Positions 4,449 through 46,795 of a stretch of DNA of 64,000 nt are shown here, one piece after another. A program made the translations under genes and the position numbers. The stretch is from Kangiellaceae bacterium. Lineage in GTDB: Bacteria; Pseudomonadota; Gammaproteobacteria; Enterobacterales; Kangiellaceae. The stretch is from the NCBI GenBank assembly GCA_019090895.1, contig JAHRVB010000142.1, positions 1-64,000 of the forward strand, given 5' to 3'. Positions within the stretch are counted from its first letter, which is position 1. Each line of letters starts with the position of its first letter. The notes below the pieces were generated by a model. The model did not search any database, was not told the DNA's origin, and worked only from the letters and a program-made list of their open reading frames with translations.

Positions 4449-5042
4449 ATGAGAAAACTAAACCACACCTTGCTACTTTTAACTATATTTGCTGCAAGCC
4501 TCCTTACGTCATCAGCCAATGCGAAAGGCCCCGCTGGAACGGTATTATACTTTCAGCAGGGCGAACAAGTATTTCTGCTACTAGCCGATCACTCTAGCAA
4601 TTCCCGAGGTTGGGGATCTTTTGGAGGCGGAGAAAATAAAGGTGAAACTTCAATAGAGACGGCTGCACGAGAAACCGAAGAAGAAACCCGTGGATATTTT
4701 CCACGAGAACTAATCGAACAAAAAATAGCAGGACAAAAACCAGTTGTATCTAAAGGATTCTCTCTTTATTTTGTAGAAATCCCTTTTGTACCCGCACAAC
4801 GGATCAGAAATAATCCTAGCGATAAATCCGACAAGAGCACCTTTGAACGCGATCACTATGCTTGGATACCCTTTTCAGAAGTTAAGAAGGCAATCAATAA
4901 AAGGAACCCATCTATTCACGATTTAAAAATCAACTCCCTTTATCTTTCTCGCGGAACAAAAACTAACTTTTTCTGGGATGTTTGGATACAGAATATGCGA
5001 CACGCTGCCGAACAGGGTGTGGTACCTTGGGAAGTTCAATAA
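4449..5042 (+). CDS. Exported Nudix-domain protein
   Basis: 197 residues. A clear signal peptide (HTLLLLTIFAASLLTSSANA) is followed by a Nudix box, GGGENKGETSIETAARETEEE, which fits G-x5-E-x7-RE-x2-EE apart from Arg in place of the last Gly. Nudix enzymes hydrolyse nucleoside-diphosphate-linked substrates and normally act in the cytoplasm, so export is unusual. No strong Shine-Dalgarno is visible. The stop overlaps the 3' end of the convergent HNH gene by 7 bases. Confidence 0.7.
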   Translation: MRKLNHTLLLLTIFAASLLTSSANAKGPAGTVLYFQQGEQVFLLLADHSSNSRGWGSFGGGENKGETSIETAARETEEETRGYFPRELIEQKIAGQKPVVSKGFSLYFVEIPFVPAQRIRNNPSDKSDKSTFERDHYAWIPFSEVKKAINKRNPSIHDLKINSLYLSRGTKTNFFWDVWIQNMRHAAEQGVVPWEVQ

Positions 5043-5590
5043 CGCATATTATTGGAAAATTCTTTGGTTAAGAAATCCATTTGATCGGCAAAAATATTTC
5101 TATTACAAAAAGCTAAGTACTCTGCTTTGTTCGGCTTATAAGGGACGGCCAGCAAAGGCATATTCGCTTCTTCTGGCGTTCGGCATCCCTTACGATTATT
5201 ACAAGGCTTACAAGCTGTTGCAAAGTTAACCCAAGAATTTTTTCCGCCTCGCGCGCGAGGTTGGATATGGTCACAAGTTAGGGTAGAACGGCTGAATACA
5301 ACACCGCAGTACAAACACATATCGCGGTCACGTTTAAACAAAGATGCGTTACACAATCTTGGCGTACGAAGGTCGCTCTCACGAACTCGAGAGTTGGTTG
5401 CGATCACCGGCGCCATGTCTAGAATAGTTTGATTCCCCGTCATTCGAGAATGACCACCATGCAGCCGAACCGATTCGTCACCATAAGTCCATAGCACTTT
5501 ACCTTTCGCGTAAAGACACGCAGCAGTGCCCATTCCAATCCATTCCATCGCCTGCCCCGCTTTATTAAGCCGCAGGATTTTAGTTTGCAT
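5036..5590 (-). CDS. HNH endonuclease at the 3' end of the tRNA array
   Basis: 184 residues from the ATG at 5590, chosen because GAGGAG lies seven bases upstream; an earlier in-frame start adds ten residues. The C-terminal half is an HNH domain: CLYCG, then CDHIQPRARGG, then NFATACKPCNNRKG, giving two zinc-binding Cys pairs and the DH catalytic pair. The N-terminal 90 residues are uncharacterised. It lies 57 bases downstream of tRNA-Arg(TCT) on the same strand and is probably the last gene of the array transcript. HNH proteins of this size can be homing or restriction-like nucleases; the target is unknown. Confidence 0.85.
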   Translation of the reverse strand: MQTKILRLNKAGQAMEWIGMGTAACLYAKGKVLWTYGDESVRLHGGHSRMTGNQTILDMAPVIATNSRVRESDLRTPRLCNASLFKRDRDMCLYCGVVFSRSTLTCDHIQPRARGGKNSWVNFATACKPCNNRKGCRTPEEANMPLLAVPYKPNKAEYLAFCNRNIFADQMDFLTKEFSNNMRY

Positions 5591-5646: not shown

Positions 5647-5721
5647 TGGCACGCATCACAGGATTCGAACCTGTTACCGTCGGCTTAGAAGGCAGAAGCT
5701 CTATCCGAATGCGCTAGTGCC
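5647..5721 (-). tRNA. tRNA-Arg(TCT), degenerate 5' half
   Basis: The anticodon loop CTTCTAA, the T-arm ACAGG-TTCGAAT-CCTGT and an encoded CCA are clear. The 5' strand does not pair well with the 3' acceptor strand when a normal D-arm is drawn. A start at 5714 would give a paired 7-bp acceptor but removes most of the D-arm. It may be D-arm-truncated or a pseudogene. Confidence 0.6.
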
Positions 5722-5728
5722 TATCAAT

Positions 5729-5803
5729 TGGAGCGACATGCCGGATTTGAACCGACGAAATTTGGGTTTGCAATCCAATACATTTCCACTCTGTCAATGT
5801 CGC
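5729..5803 (-). tRNA. tRNA-Cys(GCA)
   Basis: Perfect 7-bp acceptor GCGACAT/ATGTCGC, T73 and encoded CCA. Loop TTGCAAA gives anticodon GCA. One mismatch closes the anticodon stem (A31-C39). Confidence 0.85.
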
Positions 5804-5831
5804 AAAAATTTTTGTAAAAATGTGACCGCTA

Positions 5832-6134
5832 TTAGCGGCCACGAAACCGATACAATCGGTTAATTGATTTAATTCCTTGTTCCATTCGCTGACGCGCTGA
5901 AACATTGGCGGAATGTACCTTAATGTTCGGCGGGATCACACCATAGTCAACCACTGCTTTTTCAAGCCAAGTAATGACATCGTAACCGGTGCCGCGTTTA
6001 TCATTTCCTAAGTCATGATCTAAACTTATATCGCTTACTGCACCTGTCATTAAAAGACTAATCGCCTCTTGTGGCCAACGAACAACTTTCCAACCAGGCG
6101 GCGCCTGACGGATATCATCTAAAAAAACTTTCAT
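5832..6134 (-). CDS. Cyclic-phosphate-processing receiver-domain protein (cREC)
   Basis: 100 residues behind an excellent AGGAGG site. The whole protein is one receiver-like domain: MKVFLDDIR (acidic pair), ISLDHDLGND (phospho-acceptor-position Asp plus a histidine) and IKVHSAN. This matches the cREC family proposed, from genome-context work, to act on 2',3'-cyclic phosphates in RNA repair; that role is family knowledge by prediction, not proof. It sits inside the tRNA operon between tRNA-Thr and tRNA-Cys with no promoter of its own visible. It should therefore be co-expressed with the tRNAs, which suggests processing of damaged tRNA ends. Confidence 0.8.
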   Translation of the reverse strand: MKVFLDDIRQAPPGWKVVRWPQEAISLLMTGAVSDISLDHDLGNDKRGTGYDVITWLEKAVVDYGVIPPNIKVHSANVSARQRMEQGIKSINRLYRFRGR

Positions 6135-6154
6135 ACTATCCTCCTGGGTAAATT

Positions 6155-6229
6155 TGGAGCCGGTTATTGGATTCGAACCAATGTCGACTGCTTACAAGGC
6201 AGTTACTAAACCATCTCAGCTAAACCGGC
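6155..6229 (-). tRNA. tRNA-Thr(TGT)
   Basis: Perfect acceptor GCCGGTT/AACCGGC and encoded CCA. Loop CTTGTAA gives anticodon TGT. Canonical T-loop TTCGAAT. Confidence 0.93.
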
Positions 6230-6235
6230 ATAAAT

Positions 6236-6310
6236 TGGAAGCCCCGACTGGGTTCGAACCAGCGATACGAGAGTCAAAGTCTCGTGTGTTGCCAACTACA
6301 CTACAGGGCT
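6236..6310 (-). tRNA. tRNA-Gln(TTG)
   Basis: Acceptor AGCCCTG/CGGGGCT with one G-U pair and encoded CCA. Anticodon stem CGAGA/TCTCG closes loop CTTTGAC, anticodon TTG. Confidence 0.92.
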
Positions 6311-6317
6311 AAAAAAT

Positions 6318-6393
6318 TGGCACCCTTGGCAAGACTCGAACTTTCGCATCTTGGTTTCGTAGACCAAAGCTCTTCCAACTGAGCTACAAGGGT
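6318..6393 (-). tRNA. tRNA-Arg(ACG)
   Basis: Perfect acceptor ACCCTTG/CAAGGGT and encoded CCA. Stem TTGGT/ACCAA closes loop CTACGAA, anticodon ACG, which needs A34-to-inosine editing to read all CGN codons except CGG. The T-stem has one mismatch. Confidence 0.9.
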
Positions 6394-6398
6394 ATATT

Positions 6399-6473
6399 TG
6401 GTGTCTCCAATTGGATTCGAACCAATGTCTCGAGAATTTCAACCTCGCGCTAATCCAACTCAGCTATGAAAAC
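6399..6473 (-). tRNA. tRNA-Phe(GAA)
   Basis: Acceptor GTTTTCA pairs with TGGAGAC using two G-U pairs; CCA is encoded. Loop TTGAAAT gives anticodon GAA. Confidence 0.88.
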
Positions 6474-6480
6474 AATTATT

Positions 6481-6562
6481 TGGAACACGAGACGGGATTC
6501 GAACCTGCGAATGAATGACCAGATTGAAAGTCTGGTCACTTTGACCGCTCGTATACTCGTGT
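6481..6562 (-). tRNA. tRNA with anticodon TTC (Glu) on a Tyr/Ser-like body
   Basis: Perfect acceptor ACACGAG/CTCGTGT, T73 and CCA. A 7-bp stem GACCAGA/TCTGGTC closes loop CTTTCAA, anticodon TTC. The D-region (ACGAGCGGTCAAAG) looks like a class II tRNA such as tRNA-Tyr, yet the variable segment is only about 9 bases. Its charging identity is therefore uncertain. A conventional tRNA-Glu(TTC) lies next to it. Confidence 0.7.
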
Positions 6563-6568
6563 ATAAAC

Positions 6569-6644
6569 TGGTGTTCCTATGGGGATTCGAACCCCAGTAA
6601 CTTGGTAGAAAGCCAAGTGTCCTTAGCCACTAGACTATAGGAAC
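6569..6644 (-). tRNA. tRNA-Glu(TTC)
   Basis: Perfect acceptor GTTCCTA/TAGGAAC and CCA. Stem CTTGG/CCAAG closes loop CTTTCTA, anticodon TTC. The GTCTAGTGGC D-region is typical of tRNA-Glu. Confidence 0.93.
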
Positions 6645-6649
6645 ATGTT

Positions 6650-6726
6650 TGGTAGGCCGCCCGAGATTCGAACTCGGAACCTTCCGGTTAAAAGCCGGAT
6701 GCTGCTTCCAATTGAGCTAGCGACCT
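6650..6726 (-). tRNA. tRNA-Lys(TTT)
   Basis: Acceptor AGGTCGC/GCGGCCT with one G-U pair and encoded CCA. Stem TCCGG/CCGGA closes loop CTTTTAA, anticodon TTT. Confidence 0.93.
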
Positions 6727-6732
6727 AAAAAA

Positions 6733-6831
6733 TGGTAGTACTGGATTGAATCGAACAATCGACCTCCTGTGTGTAAGACAGGCGCTCTCCCAATCGTCTC
6801 ATTACGCCTACTTTTGGTGAGCTAAAGTGCT
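6733..6831 (-). tRNA. tRNA-Val(TAC) with a D-loop insertion
   Basis: Stem CCTGT/ACAGG closes loop CTTACAC, anticodon TAC; T-arm GATTG-TTCGATT-CAATC and CCA are present. The standard TAGCTCA and TGGGAGAGC halves of the D-arm are separated by about 21-23 extra bases. Taking the distal 5' end, acceptor AGCACTT pairs at 5 of 7 positions with CAGTACT. Taking the nearer 5' end gives a much poorer acceptor. The insert is nearly identical to that in tRNA-Ala (7069-7186). Confidence 0.7.
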
Positions 6832-6837
6832 AAAAAT

Positions 6838-6913
6838 TGGTCCCCAGAGCTGGTCATGATCCAGCCACCTCACGCTTATCAGGCGTGTGCTCTACCAGAT
6901 GAGCTATCTGGGG
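6838..6913 (-). tRNA. tRNA-Ile(GAT) with atypical T-loop
   Basis: Perfect acceptor CCCCAGA/TCTGGGG and CCA. Stem CACGC/GCGTG closes loop CTGATAA, anticodon GAT. The T-loop is ATCATGA rather than TTCRANN, which replaces the usual T54-A58 pair by A54/T58. Confidence 0.88.
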
Positions 6914-6988
6914 AAAACGGTCGAGTCGGACTTTCACCGTGACGGGTCTGTAGGGTGAAGCCTCGACCGACTTCACCATCGTTTTTCC
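6914..6988 (-). other. Structured spacer, possible tRNA-Asp remnant
   Basis: This 75-base gap between tRNA genes is longer than the others and folds strongly. GGTCGAG pairs with CTCGACC, and alternatively GGTGAAG pairs with CTTCACC. A CCGTCACGG stretch resembles the tRNA-Asp(GTC) anticodon region, but no normal T-arm can be drawn. No other Asp tRNA is found in the array. Confidence 0.3.
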
Positions 6989-7062
6989 TGGCGGATGTAC
7001 AAAGAATCGAACTTTGATCAAACGGTTAACAGCCGTTCGCTCTACCATTGAGCTACACATCC
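6989..7062 (-). tRNA. tRNA-Asn(GTT)
   Basis: Acceptor GGATGTG/TACATCC (one G-U) and encoded CCA. Stem AACGG/CCGTT closes loop CTGTTAA, anticodon GTT. Confidence 0.93.
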
Positions 7063-7068
7063 TAAAGT

Positions 7069-7186
7069 TGGTGGAGATGATGAGATTCGAACTCTTTCCT
7101 CTCGTAGCAATTCGAACTCTACAACTTGCAAAGCTTTTGCTCTCCCAATCGTCTAATAACGCCTACACTTGTTGAGCTACACCCCC
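7069..7186 (-). tRNA. tRNA-Ala(TGC) with D-loop insertion and duplicated T-arm-like element
   Basis: 118 bases. The outer ends pair fully: GGGGGTG with CATCTCC (G-U allowed), then A73 and CCA. Loop TTTGCAA gives anticodon TGC. The D-arm halves are separated by about 21 extra bases that match the insert in tRNA-Val at 26 of 28 aligned positions. After the anticodon arm there is an extra hairpin GTAG/CTAC containing AGTTCGAAT, a second T-loop-like sequence, before the true T-arm. Confidence 0.65.
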
Positions 7187-7206
7187 ATTCCAAACATTTT
7201 AATAAC

Positions 7207-7275
7207 TGGCATAGAGCGAGGGAATCGAACCCGTTTCTTAAGGCTTACAACCGTGTATAATCGCCGACATACTAT
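7207..7275 (-). tRNA. Degenerate tRNA-like gene, anticodon GTA or TGT
   Basis: Encoded CCA, T-loop TTCGATT and a GG-TTGTAAG-CC anticodon arm are visible. Only four outer acceptor pairs (ATAG/CTAT) plus one wobble form. A 7-base loop gives GTA (Tyr), while a shifted reading gives TGT (Thr). Short length and weak stems suggest a decaying copy. Confidence 0.45.
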
Positions 7276-7287
7276 GGCATCGTAAAT

Positions 7288-7363
7288 TGGTCGGAGGTAC
7301 AGGATTTGAACCTGTGATATACACTCCCAAAGCGTAGGTGTTACCAGACTACACTAACCTCCG
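7288..7363 (-). tRNA. tRNA-Pro(TGG)
   Basis: Perfect acceptor CGGAGGT/ACCTCCG and CCA. Stem TACGC/GTGTA closes loop TTTGGGA, anticodon TGG. Confidence 0.92.
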
Positions 7364-7373
7364 TTAATCAATT

Positions 7374-7449
7374 TGGTAGCAATGACAGGACTTGAACCTG
7401 TGCAAATTTTCGTATGAAGAAAACACTCTACCAACTGAGCTACATTGCT
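7374..7449 (-). tRNA. tRNA-Met(CAT), elongator type
   Basis: Perfect acceptor AGCAATG/CATTGCT and CCA. Stem TTTTC/GAAAA closes loop TTCATAC, anticodon CAT. The paired 1-72 position argues against an initiator. Confidence 0.88.
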
Positions 7450-7455
7450 AAAATT

Positions 7456-7530
7456 TGGTTGCGGATGACTGAATCGAACGGCCGACCAAAGGGACATGAA
7501 CCTTATATGCTTCCACAGCACTAACCCGCT
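7456..7530 (-). tRNA. CAT-anticodon tRNA, possibly initiator-like
   Basis: Loop TTCATGT gives anticodon CAT. The acceptor AGCGGGT/ATCCGCA pairs at six positions but has A1 opposite A72; bacterial initiator tRNA also has an unpaired 1-72. The 3' end CCGCAACCA matches the E. coli tRNA-fMet tail. The anticodon stem has only GG/CC next to the loop rather than three G-C pairs, so the identity is tentative. Confidence 0.7.
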
Positions 7531-7536
7531 TTAATT

Positions 7537-7611
7537 TGGAGCAAACACTGAGACTCGAACTCAGCCTTTAAGATTGGAAATCTTTCGTGCTACCGCTAAC
7601 ACTATGCTTGC
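7537..7611 (-). tRNA. tRNA-Gly(TCC)
   Basis: Acceptor GCAAGCA/TGTTTGC (one G-U), T73 and CCA. Stem AAGA/TCTT closes loop TTTCCAA, anticodon TCC. Confidence 0.9.
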
Positions 7612-7612
7612 T

Positions 7613-7696
7613 TGGTGGACAGCCCGGGTTTCGAACCCGGCACGCTATTAAGCATCGGATTTACAGTCCGAATGAGATCCAAATCTCCCGCTACCC
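7613..7696 (-). tRNA. tRNA-Tyr(GTA)
   Basis: First tRNA of the long distal block. Acceptor GGGTAGC/GCTGTCC (two G-U) and CCA; stem TCGGA/TCCGA closes loop CTGTAAA, anticodon GTA. It has a class II variable arm of about 14 bases and a short D-loop inside GAGA/TCTC. Confidence 0.9.
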
Positions 7697-7828: not shown

Positions 7829-7860
7829 AAAAAAACCCGAGGCTTTGAACTCTCGGGTTT
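7829..7860 (-). terminator. Terminator of attenuator 3
   Basis: On the minus strand ACCCGAGAG-loop-CCTCGGGT is followed by seven T residues: a strong intrinsic terminator. Its 5' arm can instead pair with upstream CTCTCGAGTTT (7868-7878). Confidence 0.9.
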
Positions 7861-7917: not shown

Positions 7918-8046
7918 TTACGTTGGCGCACCTCTAGCACCAAAATAAATCTTGCTATTCATTTGCCCATGTTCGGGCCGTACAATCTCACACCAATGAT
8001 TTATCGGCTGTGTTAACTGCATCTGCTTTTGGCTATTTATTTTCAT
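7918..8046 (-). CDS. Leader peptide 3 of the tRNA array
   Basis: A 42-residue ORF starting MKINSQKQMQL, with GGAA four to five bases before the ATG and ending GARGAPT. It uses 19 of the 20 amino acids (only Asp absent). It lies between tRNA-Ile2 and terminator 3, and its stop codon abuts the first attenuator segment. No promoter fits in the 26 bases upstream, so it is probably transcribed by readthrough of attenuator 2. The position and broad composition fit a codon-sampling attenuation peptide rather than a stable protein. It precedes the block with Tyr, Gly, Met, Pro, Ala, Asn, Ile, Val, Lys, Glu, Phe, Arg, Gln, Thr and Cys tRNAs. Confidence 0.7.
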   Translation of the reverse strand: MKINSQKQMQLTQPINHWCEIVRPEHGQMNSKIYFGARGAPT

Positions 8047-8072: not shown

Positions 8073-8149
8073 TGGTGGGCCTGCTCAGATTCGAACTGAG
8101 ACTCTACCGATTATGAGTCGGTTGCATTAACCAATTATGCTACAGGTCC
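8073..8149 (-). tRNA. tRNA-Ile2 (CAT, probable lysidine type)
   Basis: Acceptor GGACCTG/CAGGCCC with one A-C mismatch, A73 and CCA. Stem ACCGA/TCGGT closes loop CTCATAA, anticodon CAT. C4-G69 and C5-G68, and the CGACTCATAATCG anticodon arm shared with E. coli tRNA-Ile2, fit known TilS recognition. It would then read ATA. It stands alone between attenuators 2 and 3. Confidence 0.8.
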
Positions 8150-8165
8150 AACTTATATTTTTGGC

Positions 8166-8204
8166 AAAAAAAAGCCCTGTGAAGAATATCTCAACCGGGC
8201 TTTA
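8166..8204 (-). terminator. Terminator of attenuator 2
   Basis: Minus-strand AAAGCCC-19-base loop-GGGCTTT followed by a T-run. It sits 17 bases upstream of tRNA-Ile2, so it can only serve that tRNA as an attenuator or end an upstream transcript. Confidence 0.85.
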
Positions 8205-8249
8205 GATTCGGTTCGAGACTTCAGTTAAGCCTCGAATTATTGTTCAAAG
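8190..8249 (-). promoter_or_regulatory. Attenuator 2 competing-hairpin region
   Basis: Segments in transcript order: 0 at 8249-8243, four bases after the leader stop; 1 at 8236-8227; 2 at 8221-8209; 3 at 8198-8190, overlapping the terminator. CTTTGAA/TTCGAGG pairs 0:1 (two G-U), TTCGAGGCTT/AAGTCTCGAA pairs 1:2 over 10 bp, and AACCG/CGGTT plus CTC/GAG pairs 2:3. A ribosome at the stop masks segment 0, giving 1:2 and termination. Earlier stalling gives 0:1 and antiterminator 2:3. Confidence 0.75.
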
Positions 8250-8253
8250 CACA

Positions 8254-8361
8254 CTACATCTTTCTATTTTCATATTGCCCAATAAATGGCATGCAACAAT
8301 ATTCAGCCGGCCAATAATTGGCCCGTTGTTTTATTTGTATTGTCGCTATTATCTGATTCAT
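8254..8361 (-). CDS. Leader peptide 2 of the tRNA array
   Basis: A 35-residue ORF beginning MNQIIATIQIKQRANYW. Four of its first ten codons are ATA, and the next tRNA downstream is the CAT tRNA predicted to read ATA. The peptide uses M, N, Q, I, A, T, K, R, Y, W, P, E, C, F and G. It has no Leu, Ser or His, which are exactly the residues served by the tRNA block upstream; it also lacks Val and Asp. The ribosome-binding site is weak (an A-rich tract). It is preceded by a consensus promoter at 8450-8478. It is read as a regulatory leader, with no stable product expected. Confidence 0.7.
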   Translation of the reverse strand: MNQIIATIQIKQRANYWPAEYCCMPFIGQYENRKM

Positions 8362-8449
8362 AAAACTTTTTTCAAACTAACTTTGTAAATTAAAATTTCC
8401 TAAACACTAAGAGATACAAGTTTTTCTTACTGCTCATTTGTTAAGTTGC

Positions 8450-8478
8450 ATTAAACCATTACAGAACTTCACTGTCAA
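8450..8478 (-). promoter_or_regulatory. Sigma-70 promoter P2
   Basis: Minus-strand TTGACA, 17-base spacer, TTTAAT. It drives leader 2, tRNA-Ile2 and, by readthrough, leader 3 and the long block. The rest of 8362-8663 is AT-rich and shows no gene. Confidence 0.8.
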
Positions 8479-8663: not shown

Positions 8664-8740
8664 TGGTACGCCGCGAGGGACTCGAACCCTCAAAACCGGA
8701 GGCTTAAACCCCGTATGTATGCCAATTCCATCACCGACGC
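8664..8740 (-). tRNA. tRNA-Leu(TAA) with collapsed variable arm
   Basis: Acceptor GCGTCGG/GCGGCGT pairs at six positions with wobbles; CCA is encoded. Stem CGGGG/CTCCG closes loop TTTAAGC, anticodon TAA. The GATGGAATTGGCA D-region is Leu-like, yet the variable segment is only five bases instead of a class II arm. Confidence 0.8.
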
Positions 8741-8747
8741 ATTAAAC

Positions 8748-8836
8748 TGGAGGAGAGAAAGAGAATCGAACTCTAAAGGCTTTCGCCTTCCCTTTGCTTA
8801 GCAAGCAACGCCGATCACCATCACGGATTACTCTCC
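8748..8836 (-). tRNA. tRNA-Ser(GCT)
   Basis: Acceptor GGAGAGT/TCTCTCC pairs at six positions and CCA is encoded. Stem GTTGC/GCAAA (outermost pair mismatched) closes loop TTGCTAA, anticodon GCT. A class II variable arm AAGGC-GAAA-GCCTT is present. Confidence 0.88.
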
Positions 8837-8845
8837 AAAATAATT

Positions 8846-8938
8846 TGGCGGAAGCCGGAGGGCTCGAACCCCAAATCCTATTCAGGTACCACTGGTTTTC
8901 AAGACCAGGGCTTTGACCAACTCAAAGTTTCAACTTCC
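8846..8938 (-). tRNA. tRNA-Ser(TGA)
   Basis: Acceptor GGAAGTT/GGCTTCC (G-U allowed), G73 and CCA. Stem CTGGT/ACCAG closes loop CTTGAAA, anticodon TGA. The D-stem is extended (CTTTG/CAAAG) and a long variable arm is present. Confidence 0.88.
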
Positions 8939-8944
8939 TATATT

Positions 8945-9115
8945 TGGTACCCAGAGAGACTACTCAGACCATCCTTGGTCTTCATACATTCGTGCCATCG
9001 TCATTCTTCCGATGTTCGGCAATGCTCCTTCATTGCTCGTCGAACTCTTAATGAACGGATTCTAAATCCGCCGTGTATGCCGGACTATTTATAGCCAGCC
9101 TGGCACCACCTGGGC
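8945..9115 (-). tRNA. tRNA-Leu(TAG) with about 85 extra bases
   Basis: 171 bases. Outer ends pair fully, GCCCAGG with TCTGGGT (G-U allowed), then A73 and CCA. Stem GCGGA/TCCGT closes loop TTTAGAA, anticodon TAG. The D-loop is enlarged. The T-loop TTCGACG is followed by an insertion with three perfect hairpins (9019-9036, 8996-9014, 8966-8981) before the 3' T-stem. A functional tRNA would need removal or tolerance of this insert. Confidence 0.65.
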
Positions 9116-9141
9116 TTCATCTGTTTTTTACAAATCATCAT

Positions 9142-9218
9142 TGGGGTAACCAATCGGGTTTGAACCGATATCATCCGGACTCACAATCCGGAGCTCGACC
9201 AATTGAGCTATGGCTACC
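9142..9218 (-). tRNA. tRNA-His(GTG)
   Basis: Acceptor GTAGCCA/TGGTTAC, C73 and CCA, with an encoded G at -1, the His identity element. Stem CCGGA/TCCGG closes loop TTGTGAG, anticodon GTG. First tRNA after attenuator 1. Confidence 0.93.
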
Positions 9219-9254: not shown

Positions 9255-9286
9255 TAAAAAAACCGCAAGTTTTTGGCTTGCGGTTT
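9255..9286 (-). terminator. Terminator of attenuator 1
   Basis: Minus-strand AAACCGCAAG-7-base loop-CTTGCGGTTT followed by T residues. It lies 37 bases upstream of tRNA-His. Confidence 0.9.
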
Positions 9287-9351: not shown

Positions 9352-9483
9352 CTAGATCAACAACGAATGCTCTTTACGTGTTATTGATCCACTAAATGAA
9401 TAACCCCATAAACTGAGCACAGCAGGGCTGGAGATCCGATGATCTCTTTGCACTGTATTCAGTTGATTTAGGAATGTGTTCAT
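9352..9483 (-). CDS. Leader peptide 1 of the tRNA array
   Basis: A 43-residue ORF starting MNTFLNQLNTVQRDHR, with AAAGG about 12 bases before the ATG and ending RKEHSLLI. It uses 19 different amino acids (Cys absent). Leu (6), Ser (7) and His (2) make up 15 of 43 codons. They include CTA, CTG, CTC, TTA and TTG for Leu, and TCC, TCA, TCG, AGC and AGT for Ser. The block it precedes encodes tRNA-His, Leu(TAG), Ser(TGA), Ser(GCT) and Leu(TAA), which read these codon families. A consensus promoter lies 77 bases upstream. It is interpreted as a codon-sampling attenuation leader. Confidence 0.75.
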   Translation of the reverse strand: MNTFLNQLNTVQRDHRISSPAVLSLWGYSFSGSITRKEHSLLI

Positions 9484-9867: not shown

Positions 9868-9993
9868 TTATCGAGGGTGCTCCCCCAATAACGATATCAT
9901 CTTATCTGCTAGACAACTGAGCACACGTGTCCAGGCAGAGATATCCCCCGCTTGAAAATAATTGCACTGTTGAATAACCGTTAAGTGAAACAA
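9868..9993 (-). CDS. Leader peptide 4 of the tRNA array
   Basis: A 41-residue reading from a TTG at 9993, beginning MFHLTVIQQCNYFQAGDI and ending GEHPR. All 20 amino acids occur. TTG was chosen because AAAGGAAGAG lies just upstream and a promoter (TTGTAT-18-TAGAAT) just before that. The frame itself is open to a GTG at 10089, giving 73 residues. No tRNA follows its terminator before the next promoter, so it is an orphan module, or the outermost gate acting by readthrough into module 1. Confidence 0.55.
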   Translation of the reverse strand: MFHLTVIQQCNYFQAGDISAWTRVLSCLADKMISLLGEHPR

Positions 9994-46672: not shown

Positions 46673-46738
46673 ATGAATCAGACAACAACAAATCATCGTT
46701 TTTTTATGCTGTTTACCATGCCAAAATTGGAGAGGTAA
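46673..46738 (+). CDS. pheL: Phenylalanine leader peptide
   Basis: 21 residues, MNQTTTNHRFFMLFTMPKLE then Arg, with three TTT Phe codons (positions 10, 11, 14). It precedes an intrinsic terminator and a pheA-type gene, the standard attenuation layout. The Phe run is much weaker than E. coli PheL. GAGGT at the end of the ORF can pair with ACCTC of the terminator 5' arm, forming an antiterminator. Confidence 0.65.
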   Translation: MNQTTTNHRFFMLFTMPKLER

Positions 46739-46764
46739 TAGCTAACTGCGTAACAACAGTAACT

Positions 46765-46795
46765 AAAAACCTCCCACTTAGGGAGGTTTTTTTTT
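46765..46795 (+). terminator. pheA attenuator terminator
   Basis: AACCTCCC-ACTTA-GGGAGGTT followed by a run of T. It lies 20 bases before the pheA start. Confidence 0.9.

Follow-up and report, generated by a model that had tools for sequence, protein, structure and literature searches.

A Kangiellaceae tRNA gene array with candidate ribosome-dependent attenuators, one of which precedes a predicted AUA-reading tRNA-Ile2

The window, i.e. the whole 64,000-nucleotide stretch of a marine Kangiellaceae-type bacterium analysed here, carries on its minus strand a tRNA gene array that runs from position ~10000 down to 5036. The array comprises four leader/terminator modules (numbered 0 to 3), 20-plus tRNA genes and genes for a cREC and an HNH protein (Table 1). 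ARAGORN predicted 20 tRNA genes in 3.6 kb and missed Ser and other genes; with ~20 or more densely packed tRNA genes that are redundant with the genome's housekeeping set, the locus qualifies as a tRNA array. Among the loci found, its nearest counterparts are in Aliikangiella and Pleionea. A second HNH copy in the window's genome (G000:C91) and several HNH loci in relatives lack an array, and the plasmid relatives of the HNH protein are all less than 60% identical to it.

Table 1. Features of the tRNA array, listed in the direction of transcription (window positions)
Feature	Position	Strand	Remarks
Module 0 leader	9868-9993	-	TTG start, 41 aa, all 20 amino acids
Module 0 terminator	near 9797-9764	-	
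Module 1 leader	9352-9483	-	43 aa, Leu/Ser/His-rich
Module 1 terminator	9260-9286	-	
Block 1	8664-9217	-	tRNA-His, Leu-TAG with T-loop insertion, two Ser, Leu-TAA
27-bp palindrome-like element TTTGGAATTGAATGGGTCTGTTTCAAA	8575-8601	-	conserved, upstream of module promoter
Promoter-like TTGACA-17-TTTAAT	8450-8478	-	read from sequence
Leader 2 ORF	8254-8361	-	35 codons; ATA at codons 4, 5, 8, 10
Inverted repeat GGCCAATTATTGGCC	8309-8323	-	within leader 2, 3' of ATA cluster; strand from sequence, scan gives + strand
Switch strand 0 (GCTTTGAA)	8243-8250	-	3 nt past leader 2 stop codon
Switch strand 1 (TTCGAGGC)	8229-8236	-	partners strand 0 or strand 2
Switch strand 2 (GTCTCGAACCG)	8209-8219	-	partners strand 1 or strand 3
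Intrinsic terminator AAAGCCC..GGGCTTT + T-run	8166-8203	-	strand 3 (CGGTTGAGAT, 8197-8188) in its 5' half
Lone tRNA-Ile2, CAT	8073-8149	-	predicted lysidine 34; ARAGORN; Rfam tRNA 68.6 bits
Module 3 leader	7918-8046	-	42 aa, 19 amino acids present
Module 3 terminator	7834-7859	-	
Block 3, rest of array tRNAs	5647-7696	-	ARAGORN, Rfam
cREC cyclic-phosphate-processing receiver protein	5832-6134	-	within array; Pfam PF20274, E 1.9e-28
HNH endonuclease	5036-5590	-	closes array; Pfam PF14279/PF01844; conserved with arrays

Block 1 supplies Leu, Ser and His tRNAs, in agreement with the first-pass annotation: ARAGORN called the His and Leu-TAA genes, and the two Ser-type genes are sub-threshold Rfam matches at 8938-8850 and 8837-8751 with the anticodons TGA and GCT, as read from the sequence. 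Several tRNA genes in arrays of this type are degenerate, and some have unusual features. Inserts of ~85-110 nt lie directly 3' of GTTCGA in the T-loop of several different array tRNAs (window 9111-8944, minus strand, and the loci L041, L044 and L066); they have a common core, GCCGAACATCGGA ... GGTCTGAGTA, and may represent small introns or mobile inserts. A D-loop insertion, TAGGCGT.AT.AGACGATTGGGAGAGC, is common to the Val-TAC and Ala-TGC-like tRNAs at 6806-6733 and 7187-7068 (minus strand). The tRNA at 7280-7190 (minus strand) has the anticodon GTA and a relative's tRNA-Asp at the same position has GTC; an otherwise tRNA-Lys-like array tRNA in L042 (11956-12029) carries a CAT anticodon, a possible anticodon switch. 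A pseudoknot-like spacer, GGTGAAGTCGGTCGAGGCTTCACC...ACGGTGAAAGTCCGACTCGACC, at about 6978-6918 (minus strand) gave no Rfam match and has apparently covarying copies in the L041, L042, L254 and L260 arrays.

Module 2 begins with a promoter-like site that is absent from our promoter scan list, since the scan accepts a -10 box only if its second base is A. The 27-bp element upstream of it has 7 copies across 6 genomes, in every case some 100-130 bp 5' of a module promoter, and the window's genome contains just this one. The Shine-Dalgarno site of leader 2 is weak, or none is clear, and the inverted repeat within the leader is a possible pause hairpin. Beyond the leader lie the switch strands and the intrinsic terminator, i.e. 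the anatomy of an attenuator: a short ORF that ends just 5' of mutually exclusive hairpins. These parts support the earlier proposal that leader 2 and its terminator form a module gating the lone tRNA gene. T-box control of the array was rejected, as Rfam matched no T-box anywhere in the window. Elsewhere in the window an Rfam Phe leader match (46683-46795, plus strand; 39.1 bits against a cut-off of 55) is probably a conventional attenuator 5' of a chorismate mutase/prephenate dehydratase-like gene.

We identified 29 such leaders in 13 genomes, and most share a four-strand switch that begins just 3' of the stop codon and recurs, above shuffled controls, despite diverged sequences. In the shuffle test of 27 modules, the hairpin formed by strands 0 and 1 from the first nucleotides past the stop had a mean pairing probability of 0.75 compared to 0.23 in the shuffles, and joint 0:1 and 2:3 pairing reached P≤0.05 in 22 of the 27. 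Window module 3, where the automatic terminator finder chose the wrong hairpin, was left out of this test; the finder gave no terminator for leader 1 of L254. Leader starts were picked by hand where several were possible, and the homologs are few and partly related. A blind detector returned 13 modules from 256 kb of array loci, and every one was a leader of the arrays described here. The HNH loci that lack arrays (226 kb) gave one module, and 178 kb of phage tRNA arrays, including those carrying cREC, gave none.

Folding of partial transcripts suggests how the switch might respond to a ribosome. With the ribosome upstream, the window module 2 transcript is predicted to fold into 0:1 and 2:3, while masking of 12 nt from the stop favours 1:2, which frees strand 3. 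The values changed from 0.60 to 0.00 in window module 1, from 0.60 to 0.32 in window module 2 and from 0.76 to 0.37 in Cellvibrionaceae module 2. Not every module switches; module 2 of Pleionea G010 showed no switch in equilibrium folding (0.71 vs 0.70). Module 1 in six genomes has a constant spacing (stop, 2 nt, strand 0) that together spans 12 nt, which is about the length covered by a terminating ribosome, and from this we infer that finishing the leader would close the module and stalling would open it.

The lone tRNA gene downstream of leader 2 should encode a lysidine-type tRNA-Ile2, as the first-pass annotation proposed, with lysidine predicted at position 34. It has the anticodon CAT and the pairs C4-G69 and C5-G68, together with an A3.C70 mismatch that had gone unmentioned, and TilS is encoded in the same genome. 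It matches the housekeeping Ile2 at 56 positions and the elongator Met at 45; its anticodon arm is identical to that of the housekeeping Ile2, to which it is closer than to either Met tRNA. A Rfam Plastid-ycf2 match over the gene was below cut-off and was discarded. AUA is read by a TAT anticodon and likewise by a CAT anticodon that carries lysidine. In Aliikangiella marina (L064) and a Kangiellaceae MAG (L066) a lone CAT tRNA lies between rtcA and a slipin gene, and in a third relative (L254) a TAT tRNA with similar arms occupies the same slot. This swap is the best evidence for AUA reading, since a Met tRNA would not be replaced by TAT at an equivalent position. A degenerate TAT tRNA also lies 3' of the leader 2 homolog in Pleionea G010 (L043) and G018 (L044), the former too degraded to be recognised in the Rfam search.

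Leader 2 starts ATG AAT CAG ATA ATA GCG ACA ATA CAA ATA, i.e. four of its first ten codons are ATA, and its peptide, MNQIIATIQIKQRANYWPAEYCCMPFIGQYENRKM, lacks Leu, Ser and His (P about 4e-4 for 34 codons), both as first noted. The probability of at least four ATA among codons 2-10 is 6e-6 at the ATA frequency of the window CDS (1.5%), 8e-5 at that of the other leaders and 4e-4 from leader 2's own base composition, and for the ATA count of the whole leader the corresponding values are 0.0016, 0.017 and 0.054 (own composition A-rich), all for a site picked after the ATA cluster had been seen. Hence, the early cluster is unusual while the overall ATA count is only modestly so. Absence of ATA enrichment from homologous leaders had been named beforehand as one outcome that would refute the proposal, and it was borne out in part. 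The four homologous leader 2 peptides (Pleionea G010 and G018, Cellvibrionaceae and Microbulbifer) contain Leu and Ser and have 1-2 ATA each, with no significant excess (5 of 121 codons vs 33 of 1133 in other leaders, P 0.30; 9 of 155 and P 0.056 with the window included). Each nevertheless keeps at least one ATA, and the motif ATA CAA ATA/ATT is common to three lineages.

The suggested complementary split of codons between modules was not supported in the form proposed. Leu, Ser and His codons make up 63 of 210 in module 1 leaders compared to 26 of 160 in module 3 leaders of four genomes (Fisher P 0.0014, which is optimistic as the peptides are related in two of the four), supporting a tendency of leaders toward richness in the codons of their own block. 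Against a clean split, the window's leader 3 has Leu, Ser and His as well as two ATA, and Leu and Ser return in the leader 2 homologs. All 20 amino acids are present in 8 of the 29 leaders and 19-20 in many; distinct residues sum to 527 over the 29 (484 expected) and Cys is 3.8-fold over-represented. We rejected the all-20 leaders as proof of pan-sensing and retained them as a lead, since random-codon peptides are also varied and Cys-rich.

Taken together, we propose, with somewhat better than even confidence, that window module 2 acts as a ribosome-dependent transcription attenuator for a spare tRNA that reads AUA and that the other modules act likewise for their own blocks. RNA polymerase would start at the promoter-like site or arrive by readthrough from block 1, with a ribosome translating leader 2. 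On reaching the stop codon its footprint would cover strand 0, so that strands 1 and 2 pair, strand 3 is left free and the terminator stops transcription before the tRNA. A ribosome that stalls before this point, above all at the rare AUA codons if tRNA-Ile2 is absent, cleaved or uncharged, would instead let 0:1 pair and strand 2 capture strand 3; the terminator would fail and tRNA-Ile2 would be made. The array would then be a backup tRNA set that is set free by ribosome stalling. The AUA-specific claim is weaker than that of attenuation, as a strong ATA excess is seen only in the window.

A strong rival, which we rate as possible though not probable, keeps the attenuator and makes it a sensor of ribosome slowing in general: the lack of any tRNA, or an antibiotic that acts on the ribosome, would open each module, and the clustering of ATA in leader 2 would be incidental. 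Because the switch strands lie 3' of the stop, a stall at any earlier codon would work, and leader 2 codons other than AUA could stall ribosomes too; the unconserved ATA excess and the wide amino acid sampling of the leaders point the same way, although random codon content could also give the latter. A precedent is the trn array of Anabaena sp. PCC 7120, which is induced by translation-targeting antibiotics (PMC10272220). However, the clustering of ATA at codons 4-10 of the window's leader 2 and the Leu/Ser/His bias of module 1 leaders suggest tuning to the downstream block, and we favour an attenuator that is gated by stalling and for which AUA is, in the window, a prominent trigger.

It is improbable that the leader ORF is untranslated or senses nothing, with terminators that do no more than divide a decaying array into units or with a protein on the 27-bp element in control. 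The weak Shine-Dalgarno site, the degenerate tRNAs and the conservation of the element upstream of promoters would fit such a reading, but the ORF, the stop-to-strand-0 spacing and the four-strand pairing come back in sequences that have diverged, while control loci have next to none of them. Finally, that the lone gene is a methionine tRNA, the label ARAGORN gives to CAT tRNAs, which would deprive leader 2 of its AUA logic, is scarcely credible given that elongator-like and initiator-like Met genes are already present in the array, in addition to the lone gene's proximity to housekeeping Ile2 and the TAT replacement in a relative.

Both the array and the switch are of known kinds. In ribosome-mediated attenuation of amino acid operons of the trp, his and pheA type, a short leader ORF precedes alternative hairpins and an intrinsic terminator, and stalling opens the operon. 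The window modules share these parts, but their output is tRNA genes rather than enzymes, the first switch strand lies just 3' of the stop, and the leaders are long and varied rather than one-codon runs. The Anabaena trn operon is a similar stress-induced backup array, with 26 tRNAs that are silent in normal growth and induced by translational stress; it is held off by the repressor TrcR, the regulon of which also includes rtcB, a slipin gene and HNH genes (PMC10272220). Control there is by a DNA-binding repressor, and that paper uses neither the word leader nor the word attenuation. The bacterial and phage tRNA array units (Mycobacterium; PMC5966550, PMC12803027) have dense and redundant tRNA genes as well, and those of M. 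avium an embedded HNH gene (PMC12803027), but attenuator terms are absent from PMC12803027 and our scan of phage arrays detected no attenuators. The array of three relatives adjoins rtcA and the slipin gene with the lone tRNA in between, which recalls RtcR-rtcBA systems; the window array is unlinked to that operon and has sigma70-like promoters, and rtcR-rtcBA lies elsewhere in the genome. There (L287, G000:C72), rtcR is divergent from rtcB-rtcA and a tRNA-Gln gene lies directly 3' of rtcA at the contig end. tRNA arrays combined with leader peptides or attenuation were not found in the literature searched, most subscription journals being outside its coverage, which is limited evidence that the combination of a stress-gated backup array with this switch is new.

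A broader and more tentative view is that the leaders, each sampling most codons, are integrity sensors of the whole tRNA pool, with a dedicated AUA channel for tRNA-Ile2, beside cREC/HNH and RtcB-type RNA repair. Damage to any tRNA, e.g. cutting by an anticodon nuclease in phage defence, would then stall leader ribosomes and turn on the spare tRNAs. Attenuation is textbook knowledge for amino acid enzymes; if our proposal is true, a missing tRNA would trigger its own replacement, closing the loop directly, and it would become clear how backup tRNA arrays can be kept off until they are called for with no protein regulator involved. The purpose of such arrays would thereby become testable by simple reporters.
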